Origin: Clostridia bacterium
GTDB lineage: Bacteria > Bacillota > Clostridia > Christensenellales > CAG-314
Direction: 5' to 3'
NCBI GenBank assembly: GCA_017452035.1
Contig: JAFTNE010000104.1
Location: forward strand, 1 to 11,753
DNA: 11,753 nucleotides
The position numbers and the translations under genes were made by a program. The notes under the pieces were generated by a model that saw nothing but the letters and a program-made list of their open reading frames with translations, made no database searches and was not told where the DNA came from. Each line of letters begins with the position of its first letter. The stretch's first letter is position 1. Below are positions 5,343 to 10,223 of this stretch, piece after piece.

Positions 5343-6605
5343 TTAGTCGACAAAGTCAAACTCGATATCGCCAACAATTACAGTTGAGCCATCCACTGCG
5401 CCTGCATTGCGAAGCGCTTTGATGACACCTTTATCCTTTAAAACTCGTTGGAAGTATCTAAAACTGTCGTAGTCGTCCATGTTAACCTTGCGCGACAAAA
5501 TGGTAACAAGGCCACCAACCACTTCAAAAACACCTTCGTCAAGTTTGACAATTTCAAAGGTATCTTCCTCTTCCTTTTGCAATGAAACAGGCTCAAATTG
5601 CATTGGTTCAAGTGGAGGCAAAGTTACAAGTTTGTCCACAATGGCTTTCAACAATACGTCCACACCTTCGTGGATAATGGTTGTCATTGGAATAATTGTG
5701 TACTTTTTGCCGAACTTCTTTTGGAAAGCAACAAGGTTTTCCTCAGCGTTTGGCATGTCCATTTTGTTGGCAACAACAATCATTGGCAAATCTTTCAGCC
5801 CTTCGTCATAGGAGTAGATTTCGTTGTTGATAAGGTTGAAGTCGTCAATGGGGTTACGGTCTTCACTGCCGGAAATATCAATTACGTGTACCAAAATGCG
5901 AGTACGCTCAATGTGACGAAGAAAACTGTGGCCAAGGCCAGCACCTTCCGATGCACCTTCGATAAGACCGGGGATATCTGCCATTACAAAGGTTTGGTCG
6001 TAAAAACTTACAACGCCCAAGTTGGGGGAAAGTGTTGTAAAGTGGTAGTTGGCAATTTTGGGTTTTGCAGATGATACCACCGACAAAAGTGTGCTTTTGC
6101 CTACGTTGGGGAAACCAACGAGGCCAACGTCAGCAATGGTTTTAAGTTCCAAAATTACTTCGTACTCTTCCGTTTTTACACCATGTTCGGCAAAAGAAGG
6201 TGATTGTCTGCGAGAGTTTGCAAAGTGACGGTTACCACGACCACCTTTGCCCCCCTTCAATATGATTTCTCTTTGGCCATCGTAAAACATGTCGGCAATA
6301 ACTTGTCCGTCCATTGTTTTTACCACTGTGCCAACGGGTACTTTAACAACAAGGTCTTCACCTTGCTTGCCGTAGCAGTTCTTTTTTCCACCATTTTCGC
6401 CGTTGCCAGCACGGAAGTGTTTTTGGAAGTGGAACACGTTTAGAGTATTTTCGGAAGAGGTTGCCTCAAAGATGATATCGCCACCCTTGCCACCGTCACC
6501 ACCATCAGGGCCACCGTTTGCAACGTATTTTTCTGTATGAAGGCTGGCAGAACCATTTCCACCGTTACCTGATTTGATGTATATTTTGACTTTGTCGATA
6601 AACAT
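5343..6605 (-). CDS. obgE: GTPase Obg (ObgE/CgtA), Gram-positive form with OCT domain
   Basis: This is an essential slow-cycling GTPase that acts in late 50S assembly and stress signalling. All three domains are present in 420 residues. The glycine-rich Obg fold covers about 1-158, with repeated GG motifs near 13-44 and 66-73. The G domain has the P-loop GFPNVGKST (164-172), DIPG (210-213) and NKMD (280-283). The C-terminal OCT domain covers about 348-420. The ATG is preceded by AGGAGG with a six-base gap, and that site lies inside the last two codons of the upstream fusion gene; the two genes are only three bases apart. It should therefore be expressed with, and translationally linked to, the Nth-oxidoreductase fusion, and it heads an obgE-yhbY-yfcE string. 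Confidence 0.98.
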   Translation of the reverse strand: MFIDKVKIYIKSGNGGNGSASLHTEKYVANGGPDGGDGGKGGDIIFEATSSENTLNVFHFQKHFRAGNGENGGKKNCYGKQGEDLVVKVPVGTVVKTMDGQVIADMFYDGQREIILKGGKGGRGNRHFANSRRQSPSFAEHGVKTEEYEVILELKTIADVGLVGFPNVGKSTLLSVVSSAKPKIANYHFTTLSPNLGVVSFYDQTFVMADIPGLIEGASEGAGLGHSFLRHIERTRILVHVIDISGSEDRNPIDDFNLINNEIYSYDEGLKDLPMIVVANKMDMPNAEENLVAFQKKFGKKYTIIPMTTIIHEGVDVLLKAIVDKLVTLPPLEPMQFEPVSLQKEEEDTFEIVKLDEGVFEVVGGLVTILSRKVNMDDYDSFRYFQRVLKDKGVIKALRNAGAVDGSTVIVGDIEFDFVD

Positions 6606-6608
6606 AGT

Positions 6609-8375
6609 TTACCTCCTAAATAGTATGTATTGCGCGCATGCAAGGGCATGTTGCACAGCTTTGACAACCAGTCCACCACCGATAGCGTCGCCACCAACAA
6701 ATGTTTTGTCGTCAATTTGGTAATTTTCGTTAGGTTGAGGCTTTTGGCCACCAAACAGAGTTTTGTCGCAAGCACCACCCACAGCGCAAACAACGTGATC
6801 GCACTGTATTGTGCATAGTTCGTCAGTAATTTGCAACGAACTACGGCCATTAGATACCGTTTTTGCAACCGTTAAGGTCAAGTTTGTGTTGCTTTTTTCC
6901 AGTTTTGTTGGCGCAACGTTAAACACAAAGTTAACACCAACTTGTTTTGCGTGAGCAATTTCTGCCTTGAAGGCAGGCATATCATCTTCGCGACGTCGAT
7001 ATGCCACAGTAACGTTACAACCCAAACTTTTTGCGTAGGTTGCGCAGTCAATGGCAGTGTTACCACCACCAACAACCACCACGTTGCCACTAACTTTGCC
7101 CATCAAACAGTCGTTGGACGTTGTTGCAAGTTGTTCGCCATCCACACCCAAAGTGTAGTTGACAGTTGCACCCGTTGCAACGTACACAATGTCAAAATCG
7201 CTACGCAGTTGTTGTAGTTTTTCGCTATCAACACTTTGATACATCACACAAACGTCTGCAGGGATGTTATCTACAATGCGTTCAATGGACGCTTTGGGTA
7301 GCCTGTAAGTTGGGATAAGGTTAAGTGTAGAAAGCAGTTCGTCCCTTTCGAAAATGGTAACGCTTGCACCATGCTGATACATTTGTGATGCAAAGGTTAT
7401 GCCAGCAACACCACCACCAATAACAGCAACTTTTGTGCCTTTTAGCTTGGTGTCAACAGCCTTCCAAACAAATGGATGTTGAGCAAAAATTGTGCGCTCA
7501 ACCAATGGAAAATCCACAGCGTTACCCTTGTTTTTGAGTACGCAGTTTCCACGACATTGCTCATCATGTGGGCAAACGTAGCCACAAATTTCGCCAAATG
7601 GATGGTTTATTAGCTTGCTTGCTTTACTCCACTTTTGTGCGTCCACCAGTGCCAAAATTTGAGGAATTTGGTTGGATATTGGGCAATTTTCCACGCACTT
7701 TGCAACTTTGCAACCAAGGCATTTAGAGGCCTCTAAACTGGCGTTTTGCGTTTGTTTTTCGGCATAGTGTTTGCAGTAATGCTTGACGCTACAACGGCCA
7801 CATTGTGGGTTTTGCGCCTTACAAACGTACCTACCATGCAACAATATGTAGTGGTGAGAGTCGGCCCACTCGTTTTGAGGAATTGCCTTCATCAATTGCT
7901 TTTCGGTATCCAAAACGTTTTTGGCGTTGGCAATGCCCAGCCTGTTGGAAACGCGAAAAACGTGGGTATCTACTGCTATTGCTTGTCCACCAAATGCCAC
8001 GGCGTACACAACGTTTGCCGTCTTGCGACCAACGCCTTTTAGCGTTTGCAAATCTTTGAGATTTTGTGGCACAAGACCATCAAAACGTACAACCAGGTCG
8101 TGAGCCATCTCTTTGAGATAGGTCGCCTTGGAGTGGTAAAATCCACAAGAACGGATGAGCTGTTCAATTTGCTCAATGGGCAAATTGGCAAGGTCTTGTG
8201 GTGTAGGCGCAACTGCAAAAAGCGCAGGGGTAACTTGGTTTACGCGTTTGTCGGTACATTGCGCAGACAAAATTACAGCCACGATAAGCTCGCACGGATT
8301 ATTAAAATTTAGTTCGCTTTTGGCATTGGGGAAGTCCTTTGCCAAAATTTTTAGTATCGCTTGAGTGTTTGCCAT
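6609..8375 (-). CDS. Endonuclease III fused to a GltD-like NADPH/FAD oxidoreductase
   Basis: This 588-residue protein has two complete halves. Residues 1-205 are endonuclease III, a glycosylase/AP lyase for oxidised pyrimidines. They show SAQCTDKRVN (37-46), the helix-hairpin-helix LKGVGRKTA with catalytic Lys118, VDTH with catalytic Asp136, and the [4Fe-4S] motif Cys185-x6-Cys192-x2-Cys195-x5-Cys201. After a linker (about 202-218) comes a GltD/dihydropyrimidine-dehydrogenase-like flavoprotein. It has two Cys sets (219, 222, 227, 231 and 264, 268, 274, 278), the FAD fingerprint GGGVAG (320-325), the NADPH site GGGNTA (436-441) with YRRR (459-462), and a terminal GGD (561-563) that closes the FAD fold. 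No stop interrupts the junction, and the next in-frame ATG is Met332, past the FAD fingerprint. ATG 8375 is chosen; TTG 8378 is directly before it. First gene of the obgE operon. The electron acceptor is unknown. Confidence 0.93.
   Translation of the reverse strand: MANTQAILKILAKDFPNAKSELNFNNPCELIVAVILSAQCTDKRVNQVTPALFAVAPTPQDLANLPIEQIEQLIRSCGFYHSKATYLKEMAHDLVVRFDGLVPQNLKDLQTLKGVGRKTANVVYAVAFGGQAIAVDTHVFRVSNRLGIANAKNVLDTEKQLMKAIPQNEWADSHHYILLHGRYVCKAQNPQCGRCSVKHYCKHYAEKQTQNASLEASKCLGCKVAKCVENCPISNQIPQILALVDAQKWSKASKLINHPFGEICGYVCPHDEQCRGNCVLKNKGNAVDFPLVERTIFAQHPFVWKAVDTKLKGTKVAVIGGGVAGITFASQMYQHGASVTIFERDELLSTLNLIPTYRLPKASIERIVDNIPADVCVMYQSVDSEKLQQLRSDFDIVYVATGATVNYTLGVDGEQLATTSNDCLMGKVSGNVVVVGGGNTAIDCATYAKSLGCNVTVAYRRREDDMPAFKAEIAHAKQVGVNFVFNVAPTKLEKSNTNLTLTVAKTVSNGRSSLQITDELCTIQCDHVVCAVGGACDKTLFGGQKPQPNENYQIDDKTFVGGDAIGGGLVVKAVQHALACAQYILFRR
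6612..6617 (-). promoter_or_regulatory. obgE Shine-Dalgarno embedded in the fusion gene's last codons
   Basis: The minus-strand AGGAGG is the final Arg-Arg pair (codons 587-588) of the fusion gene. TAA follows, then ACT, then the obgE ATG. Ribosomes finishing the fusion therefore sit on the obgE initiation site, a classic layout for translational coupling. Confidence 0.9.
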
Positions 8376-8409: not shown

Positions 8410-8438
8410 ATTATATATCATTTTGGGGATTTTTTCAA
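8410..8438 (-). promoter_or_regulatory. Sigma-A promoter of the nth-oxidoreductase / obgE operon
   Basis: On the minus strand this is TTGAAA (8433-8438; 5 of 6), an exact 17-base spacer and TATAAT (8410-8415; 6 of 6). Transcription should start near 8403, giving a leader of about 28 bases before the ATG at 8375. The strong match indicates constitutive vegetative expression of the whole operon. Confidence 0.85.
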
Positions 8439-8590: not shown

Positions 8591-8842
8591 TTACAGCATG
8601 GTAATTGTTGTGCCACGCAAGGCAACCTTGACCAAAAAGAACCCAACAAAGGTATCAGCCTGACGGATGATGTTACCGTACGCACCTAGCGTCTCACGAG
8701 AAAACTTGACGGACAATCCACAGCCAACACCTGCGCCCTGGGGTGTAGAAACAATGGCACAAGTTTGGTTTTGCCCTATCAAGTAGTTGTAAACGCGCAT
8801 TGCAACACTGCGCGAACGATATACGGCAATGATGTATTCCAT
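8591..8842 (-). CDS. DUF3343 family protein (putative Se/S carrier-like)
   Basis: This 83-residue protein has the compact alpha/beta pattern of DUF3343. It opens with MEYIIAVYRSRSVAMRVYNY and contains the family hallmark STPQGAGVGCGLSVKF (32-47) with the single conserved cysteine Cys41. The family is described as putative selenium/sulfur carrier-like, and its genes are often near EF2568-type cysteine desulfurases; the biochemical role is unproven. The start at 8842 follows AAAGGAG with a six-base gap. The frame extends to 8872, but those ten codons precede the ribosome binding site. It is divergent from the cysteine desulfurase, which supports a role as acceptor of sulfur or selenium on Cys41. 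Confidence 0.85.
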   Translation of the reverse strand: MEYIIAVYRSRSVAMRVYNYLIGQNQTCAIVSTPQGAGVGCGLSVKFSRETLGAYGNIIRQADTFVGFFLVKVALRGTTITML

Positions 8843-8911
8843 GGTTTTCTCCTTTATGTAAGGCAAAAACAATCACCAACAAAAGACAAAATGCCCCATC
8901 CCTTTTGGCAT

Positions 8912-9098: not shown

Positions 9099-10223
9099 AT
9101 GATTTACCTAGACAATGCATCCACCACCAACTACAAACCACAACGCGTTATTGATGCCGTTGTTGAGTGCTTGACAAAATACCCCTTCAACCCACACCGT
9201 GGAGGAAAAGTTTCACTCGAACTGCAACAAAAAATGCAGAACGTACGCCAAAAACTGGCACTTTTGTGTAATAACCCCAGCGCGCAAGTAGTGTTTACAA
9301 GTGGGTGTACCGAGGCGCTTAACCTTGCCATTTTGGGTTGCGCAAGACGTGGACACATTATACTTTCTGCCACCGAACACAACTCCGTTTTGCGCCCTGT
9401 GGTGCAACTAAAAAACAAGGGCATTGTAGATTTTTCCGTTGTGCAACCCGACCACACTGGGCAAATAACGGTGGAAAGTTTGCAAAAAGCACTGCGCAAA
9501 GATACCTACATGTTGATAATCAACCAAGCGTCCAACGTGACTGGTACGGCGCAAAATTTGCGAGATATTGGCGCATTTGCACGATCGAACAACCTGCTGT
9601 TTTTGTGCGACTGCGCCCAATCAATGGGGTACTTTCCCACTGATATGGTCAAAAACAACATTGACCTACTGGCAATTGCTGGGCACAAAGGTCTGCACGC
9701 CATGCAAGGAGTAGGCGCGCTAATTTTCAACAACCGAGCAATTCCTCGCCCTATCAAATTTGGTGGCACTGGTACAGAAAGCCACAACCTAAGTCAGCCA
9801 ACAACACTGCCCGATGGCTTGGAAAGTGGCACACCAGCCTCTGCCAACATTTTGTCGTTAGGTGCAGGTATCGACTGGTGGCTGGATACTTACAAACAGT
9901 CGGCAGAAAACATTTCCTACTGCCAAAGGTTGCTACTGGACGGCCTACAAGCTATACCCAACGTAAAACTGTACAGCACAGCCAACAAAAGTGGCATTGT
10001 AGCCTTTAACGTTGGTGAGATGGATAGCAACGTTGTTTGTGACCACCTTGCTGACAAATACAACGTCATCACACGTGGTGGACTGCACTGCGCGCCACTG
10101 ATGCACCAATACCTTGGCACAACAAACCAAGGCATTGTTCGAGCAAGCGTCAGTTGCGTGACAACCAAGCAAGATTGCTTTGCCCTACTCAACGCAATAC
10201 AAAACTTGGTAAAAATGGCATAA
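9099..10223 (+). CDS. Cysteine desulfurase, EF2568-type class V aminotransferase fold
   Basis: This 374-residue PLP enzyme is predicted to remove sulfur from cysteine (or selenium from selenocysteine) and hold it as a persulfide. Residues seen are the N-terminal MIYLDNASTT, ATEHNSV with His94 stacking on PLP, Asp171 in DCAQ, the Schiff-base lysine in GHKG (Lys197), and the catalytic cysteine in RGGLHCAPLMH (Cys331). The GGLHCAPL..H form points to the EF2568 branch, not IscS or classic SufS. In other Firmicutes that branch occurs with DUF3343 and with orphan selD and selenium-dependent molybdenum hydroxylase genes. No suf, isc, selD or hydroxylase gene lies in this window. ATG at 9099 follows GAGGA with a short gap. 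The gene is divergent from DUF3343. Confidence 0.93.
   Translation: MIYLDNASTTNYKPQRVIDAVVECLTKYPFNPHRGGKVSLELQQKMQNVRQKLALLCNNPSAQVVFTSGCTEALNLAILGCARRGHIILSATEHNSVLRPVVQLKNKGIVDFSVVQPDHTGQITVESLQKALRKDTYMLIINQASNVTGTAQNLRDIGAFARSNNLLFLCDCAQSMGYFPTDMVKNNIDLLAIAGHKGLHAMQGVGALIFNNRAIPRPIKFGGTGTESHNLSQPTTLPDGLESGTPASANILSLGAGIDWWLDTYKQSAENISYCQRLLLDGLQAIPNVKLYSTANKSGIVAFNVGEMDSNVVCDHLADKYNVITRGGLHCAPLMHQYLGTTNQGIVRASVSCVTTKQDCFALLNAIQNLVKMA

Follow-up and report, generated by a model that had tools for sequence, protein, structure and literature searches.

An endonuclease III gene fused to an NADPH/FAD flavoprotein gene in uncultured gut Clostridia

Endonuclease III (EndoIII or Nth, gene nth) usually occurs on its own, with about 210 residues, and the NUDIX-type domain of the glycosylase MutY has a role in lesion recognition. 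MutY is a cluster-bearing helix-hairpin-helix (HhH) glycosylase to which a domain from another enzyme superfamily, NUDIX, has been added (PMC9266487). Whether the [4Fe-4S] cluster of EndoIII is structural or a redox switch has long been disputed (PMC9266487); as a switch, the oxidised form binds DNA tightly and the reduced form releases it (PMC11840932; PMC9266487). Among flavoproteins, the fused Nfn proteins of patterns B-D join an NfnB-type flavoprotein to the product of a neighbouring gene (PMC6405883), the partner being NfnA, the electron-transfer subunit. Here we describe a fusion in which the partner is instead a DNA-repair enzyme. It lies in a stretch of 11,753 nucleotides from a Clostridia bacterium (Christensenellales, CAG-314; assembly GCA_017452035.1, contig JAFTNE010000104.1), below called the window. 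On the minus strand, from 8375 to 6609, a single 588-residue frame encodes EndoIII and then a flavoprotein with NADPH, flavin adenine dinucleotide (FAD) and two [4Fe-4S] clusters. As in MutY, a glycosylase has been extended with a domain from another enzyme superfamily; the addition here is a redox enzyme, and the C-terminus of EndoIII continues directly into it. The gene and its parts are as follows.

6609..8375, minus strand: fused gene, EndoIII plus a GltD/NfnB-superfamily NADPH/FAD/2[4Fe-4S] flavoprotein, 588 residues
8022..8024, minus strand: Lys118, EndoIII catalytic lysine, Lys in 62/62 aligned Nth sequences
7968..7970, minus strand: Asp136, EndoIII catalytic aspartate, Asp in 62/62 aligned Nth sequences
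7773..7823, minus strand: EndoIII [4Fe-4S] loop, C185-x6-C192-x2-C195-x5-C201, from Pfam and the alignment
7722..7772, minus strand: junction, residues 202-218, from the last EndoIII cluster cysteine to the first flavoprotein cluster cysteine, modelled as one helix
7488..7721, minus strand: two-[4Fe-4S] domain (Fer4_20) with C219, C222, C227, C231, C268, C274, C278 and Glu293 (the NfnB ligand pattern), plus C264
7401..7418, minus strand: FAD fingerprint GxGxxG, residues 320-325
6993..7070, minus strand: NADPH-binding part, residues 436-461 (GGGN; R460 R461)

The frame opens with an ATG at 8375 and closes with a stop at 6609-6611. All Pfam matches were above cut-off: HhH-GPD (residues 32-166), HHH (97-125) and EndIII_4Fe-2S (185-201), followed by Fer4_20 (202-296) and Pyr_redox_2 (315-575). 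The EndoIII cluster closes its domain and the first flavoprotein cluster opens its own, with C201 and C219 18 residues apart. The first-pass annotation, made from the sequence alone, had held that the second half has no start of its own before Met332, a residue beyond the GxGxxG motif at 320-325. In agreement with this, residues 202-218 contain no in-frame ATG, GTG or TTG, either in the window or in the fused gene of a congener (G016). The next in-frame starts, GTG at V228 in the window and ATG at M226 in G016, lie beyond the first cluster cysteines, and a separate internal start for the flavoprotein was rejected. The catalytic and cofactor residues examined were intact in all 24 aligned fused sequences, except E343, which is D in one of them (P0024).

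About 5.8 billion proteins were searched, the 8000 candidates sharing most words with the query were scored, and the best 120 of 2044 hits were examined. Among these, 23 (P0002-P0024) are fused and 97 match the flavoprotein half only. The full architecture is present in 20 clusters (P0002-P0021), with lengths of 587-590 residues and 70-98% identity to the window protein; P0022 is a fused copy of 515 residues with a broken C-terminus. A search with Nth (best 120 of 8000) added one fused fragment, P0122. The congener G016, whose genome is 92% complete, carries the fusion with 77% identity over 588 residues. Of the 25 genus genomes, two (the window's and G016) carry the fusion and 23 have two genes. 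Among 396 genomes of the order, at an E cut-off of 1e-85 which distant fusions could escape, the fusion was found only in these same two genomes. A scan of named genomes with the flavoprotein half as query confirmed nothing, and with alignment A2 it returned chiefly distant relatives (28-35% identity) plus one locus, L075.

For the pair window and G016, the two genomes to which this and the DNA comparison of the fused junction refer, the ratio of non-synonymous to synonymous substitution (dN/dS) was 0.08 in EndoIII, 0.21 in the junction, and 0.28 and 0.20 in the flavoprotein parts. Purifying selection thus acts along the whole length of the frame. Identity to G016 is 90% for EndoIII and 70% for the flavoprotein, which therefore evolves faster. 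The fusion in some uncultured gut Clostridia is genuine and under selection. A single uninterrupted frame, with both halves complete and free of decay, had been proposed from the window alone, and the reading frame, the 20 clusters, G016, the key residues and the dN/dS values all bear this out. Nor are close relatives always two-gene, one congener and the 20 clusters being fused, though 23 of the 25 genus genomes keep the genes apart.

The EndoIII half scored 256 bits against TIGR01083 (endonuclease III; cut-off 212), and its model has the endonuclease III fold. With the known enzymes (PDB 1orn/1orp, 2abk) it shares the full-length fold, the Lys/Asp pair, the HhH and the C-x6-C-x2-C-x5-C loop, and 49% of the 209 residues aligned with 1orp are identical. 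Lys118 and Asp136, which we take to be the equivalents of K120 and D138 in E. coli, are accompanied by a four-cysteine loop likewise conserved in 62/62 Nth sequences, and the half would still remove oxidised pyrimidines. The fusion is the sole clear EndoIII, and the sole strong match of its kind, found in its own assembly (79% complete, 264 contigs); judged by reading, the other HhH-GPD match is a 271-residue protein and the other Fer4_20 match an aldo-keto-reductase-like protein. The organism lies close to Candidatus Fimimonas, and may be a member of it; the EndoIII half is 79% identical to a protein of Candidatus Fimimonas gallinarum (P0194). Candidatus Fimimonas (taxid 2840648) stands under Myxococcota in the NCBI taxonomy, whereas it is GTDB CAG-1435, order Christensenellales, in PMC8035907; one related protein is still named Corallococcus sp. 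CAG:1435.

In the flavoprotein half G320, G322, G325, residues 436-439, R460, R461 and R358, the last presumably the arginine near flavin N5, are conserved in 24/24 fused sequences. Two conserved arginines have an NADPH-binding role in Nfn, at the NADP phosphate (PMC6405883), and R460 and R461 would be this pair. The NfnB motif RCx2Cx4Cx3CPV is present with its cysteines and proline, the first R being K and the last V being I in the window; in GRVCPQExQCx3Cx13Gx2ER the cysteines and ER are kept, and R, QE and the later G are replaced. Beside the cluster ligands lies an extra cysteine, C264 (7584-7586, minus strand), where P. furiosus NfnL has Thr; it is conserved in 24/24 fused sequences, 23/23 unfused genus sequences, the related locus L062 and 9/9 NfnB-like sequences of the order.

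The modelled flavoprotein half has the NfnB fold, and shares domain plan and fold with GltD, the NADPH glutamate synthase small subunit (PDB 6s6s, 2vdc), and with the DPD N-terminal domains (1gte and others). Its scores fall far under the NCBIfam cut-offs for NfnB (PRK12778, 179 against 1103 bits; TIGR01316, 171 against 472 bits) and under that for GltD (TIGR01318, 164 against 483 bits), while an NfnB of the order (L064) passes TIGR01316 with 552 bits. A single-sequence search ranked GltD and NfnL equally, at 125 bits each, and the fold search placed 2vdc just 1.6 Z behind NfnL (37.9), folds missing from the fold-search lists not being counted as evidence. A GltB-type gene was absent among the genes identified in the window, no genome search for GltB having been made. 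Compared with NfnB, the flavoprotein of the genus is without some 30 N-terminal residues and a loop of about 16 residues, the GG doublet preceding the IPxFR motif is replaced, and no NfnA was detected in the genus.

It is also separate from NfnB by phylogeny. In a tree of 53 sequences (12 of 46 genus-type flavoproteins and 30 of 79 outside matches, picked by hand, among them) the genus flavoproteins, L062 and P0024 formed a branch of their own (99/96). A clade uniting the genus-type flavoproteins with nine nth-linked NfnB was rejected by the approximately unbiased (AU) test (p = 0.0098), a value to be taken with caution given the long branches. The flavoprotein is a member of the GltD/NfnB superfamily on its own branch, and the earlier label of GltD-like was a fair one. 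Descent from an nfnB in the same slot, first judged likely from gene order and structure, is unsupported by the tree with the 30 outside sequences. Strong divergence and replacement would both account for its origin, and the odds that we give below for the functional readings do not depend on this descent.

The unfused congeners suggest how the fusion arose. The 23 unfused genus loci examined all have the order DUF3343-nth-flavoprotein-obg, and in 25/25 genus genomes nth is adjacent or fused to the flavoprotein gene (an adjacency count partly read by eye). In 23/23 unfused loci the flavoprotein is read in the +1 frame relative to nth, and one or more possible start codons fall within nth, the nearest overlap being 8-20 nucleotides; three of these loci (L042, L052, L055) also have a later start outside nth. 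The next pair, flavoprotein and obg, served as a control and overlaps in 3/23, with the obg start placed by alignment. From the last nth cysteine to the first flavoprotein cysteine the 23 loci have 46-82 nucleotides, always 1 modulo 3, and the fusion has 54. At the overlap, a net change of -1 (or +2) nucleotides would restore the frame and be enough to explain the fusion. Among relatives in the order, nfnA-nfnB often occupies the slot that separates nth from obg; in the genus this slot holds the shorter flavoprotein (about 375 residues), and NfnA was found in 0/25 genus genomes, the window's included (E<=1e-5). In another genus of the family (G034, locus L062) an nth-flavoprotein pair is likewise present without NfnA, with a frame offset of 2 and a TTG overlapping nth by 4 nucleotides. 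The pairing may predate the genus, since both this pair and the P0024 fusion group with the genus flavoproteins. In an order relative (G038, L066) NfnA and NfnB are fused into 740 residues directly after nth; together with the EndoIII-flavoprotein gene, this means that neighbouring genes of the nth-obg slot have been fused in two different pairings.

Trees were built from 66 flavoprotein and 62 Nth sequences; the truncated copy P0022, the fragment P0122, which came to light later, and L073 are in none of the trees. In the flavoprotein tree 22 fused sequences formed one clade (support 100/100), P0023 fell among congeners with separate genes, and P0024 fell outside the genus. A single clade for all fused sequences was rejected (AU p = 5.7e-11), as were two partial groupings (p = 1.2e-9 and 7.8e-7). 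The fusion therefore probably arose three times, the second and third each on one metagenomic sequence.

We favour the reading, at a probability of about 0.5, that the fusion is a genuine two-domain enzyme, a tethered functional pair. If EndoIII and the flavoprotein act as a fixed physical pair, this would explain why every sampled locus of the genus shows the overlap and why the fusion apparently recurred. The flavoprotein half would take hydride from NADPH onto FAD, and single electrons would leave through its two [4Fe-4S] clusters, without the NADH branch of Nfn because NfnA is absent. The most natural job of such a pair would be a redox service: the flavoprotein would hold the EndoIII cluster in the reduced 2+ state or return it there, which would let EndoIII release DNA, or would protect it. 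Electrons might pass directly, via ferredoxin or from one molecule to another. We put redox service as the job of the pair at about one in five. A more specific proposal is that the NADPH-driven flavoprotein is a dedicated redox partner that sets the [4Fe-4S] state of EndoIII, so that NADPH status would control DNA residence, gene overlap having come first and fusion, probably three times, later; we consider this unlikely.

Several observations weigh against the functional pair. The Nth tree is weak: it requires four changes, three of them forced by starred branches, leaves the main clade partly unresolved and, taken alone, fails to recover the fused clade. P0023 and P0024 are each known from one metagenomic sequence, the contigs being 8602 and 1864 bases long. 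Four loci of the family (L059, L060, L061, L068) have nth and obg with no flavoprotein between them, and outside the order 1 of 47 same-class genomes has nth and such a flavoprotein gene less than 2 kb apart (matches at E<=1e-28; a count read by eye). In the tree the flavoprotein stands apart from the nth-linked NfnB of the order's other members and so need not carry any old link between nth and Nfn. The long helical linker discussed below counts here as well, and neighbour overlap and fusion are also cheap accidents in genomes that are mostly 1.3-1.7 Mb.

The main rival is that two unrelated neighbouring enzymes with overlapping ends were joined by an indel, nothing being lost, with both ends tolerating the tether and each half working alone. 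Gene order and overlap alone make such a fusion easy, and with the EndoIII end and the flavoprotein beginning both near the junction no functional part had to go. Small genomes, the faster evolution of the flavoprotein and the rarity of the linkage outside the order all fit a neutral event. They have to be set against the overlap of nth and flavoprotein in every unfused locus as compared with 3/23 for the next pair, the probable fusion of the same pair on three separate occasions, purifying selection on each half as well as at the junction (in one genome pair), and a length held at 587-590 residues in 20 clusters down to 70% identity. We regard a neutral fusion as a serious possibility, somewhat short of an even chance.

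A second rival, a wired repair enzyme, would make NADPH, FAD, the flavoprotein clusters and the EndoIII cluster one intramolecular path, by which NADPH would directly set DNA affinity. The closeness of C201 and C219 in sequence, with the clusters at facing domain ends, is in its favour, and so is the report that the redox state of the cluster governs EndoIII affinity (PMC11840932). The predicted docking site of ferredoxin on Nfn is close to the distal (outer) NfnB cluster (PMC6405883), which would give that relative an outward donor site. Two structure models were compared, with a predicted local distance difference test (pLDDT) score of 89.7 and a predicted template-modelling score (pTM) of 0.77 for the second, built from alignment A4 with 89 of 241 proteins used, and of 83.9 and 0.66 for the other. 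In both, residues 202-218 form one continuous helix joining the two cluster domains. A helix rises 1.5 Å per residue, and by this geometry the 17-residue junction would hold the nearest cluster ligands about 27 Å apart. The electron-transfer limit is quoted as 14 Å (PMC6405883), so one-step transfer to the EndoIII cluster is disfavoured in these models. Cysteine spacing in the unfused congeners varies from 46 to 82 nucleotides, and one Nth homologue cycles between 2+ and 1+ essentially independently of DNA (PMC9266487). Such a wired enzyme appears improbable.

Finally, that a missed stop or a frame error in sequencing or assembly joined two genes has next to no chance of being true: the window does come from a 79%-complete assembly in 264 contigs, but 20 clusters and a 92%-complete congener share the fused frame and length with dN/dS below 0.3 across the junction, and artefact and decay are ruled out for the main clade, the singletons P0023 and P0024 excepted.

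The surroundings of the fused gene contain the following features.

8410..8438, minus strand: sigma-70-like promoter, TTGAAA-17-TATAAT, 11/12 matching, ending 34 nucleotides before the ATG
5343..6605, minus strand: obg, 3 nucleotides past the fusion stop
8591-8872, minus strand: DUF3343 gene, putative Se/S carrier, upstream of nth
9099-10223, plus strand: cysteine desulfurase-family gene, divergent, upstream of nth (TIGR01977, 335 bits, under the cut-off of 377)

Three such promoter sites were found against 2.3 expected in shuffled sequences, which is weak as a count. The obg gene is probably co-transcribed with the fusion. The 23 unfused genus loci, and several loci of the family, also have DUF3343 and desulfurase genes close to nth, the desulfurase gene not being divergent in every locus. 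Rfam and tRNA scans gave no matches.

A full-text literature search for fusions of EndoIII with oxidoreductases, Nfn, glutamate synthase or flavoproteins returned no such architecture, in a coverage outside which most subscription papers lie. In a review devoted to the extra domains of glycosylases (PMC9266487), the words fused and fusion gave no match, and oxidoreductase came up only for the contact of OGG1 with a respiratory complex. This accords with the first-pass annotation, which knew of no description of the architecture. Its further suggestion of an undescribed system holds for the domain architecture, apparently undescribed, and is too strong as regards a new system, both parts coming from known superfamilies. 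The architecture is true, selected and apparently undescribed; two known superfamilies make it up, its route to fusion is clear, and its proposed functional meaning is testable.

Even a neutral fusion would remain a well-documented example of two overlapping genes joined through a frame shift. In this genus a distinct flavoprotein branch is tied to DNA repair, and a one-electron reductase on EndoIII would give the redox switch a dedicated reductant. The fusion is a natural handle on whether the redox state of the EndoIII cluster matters in cells. Should one lineage have attached an NADPH-dependent one-electron reductase to EndoIII more than once, evolution would be pointing to a physiological reductant, and one purified protein, or the unfused pair, would make the question of cluster redox testable.
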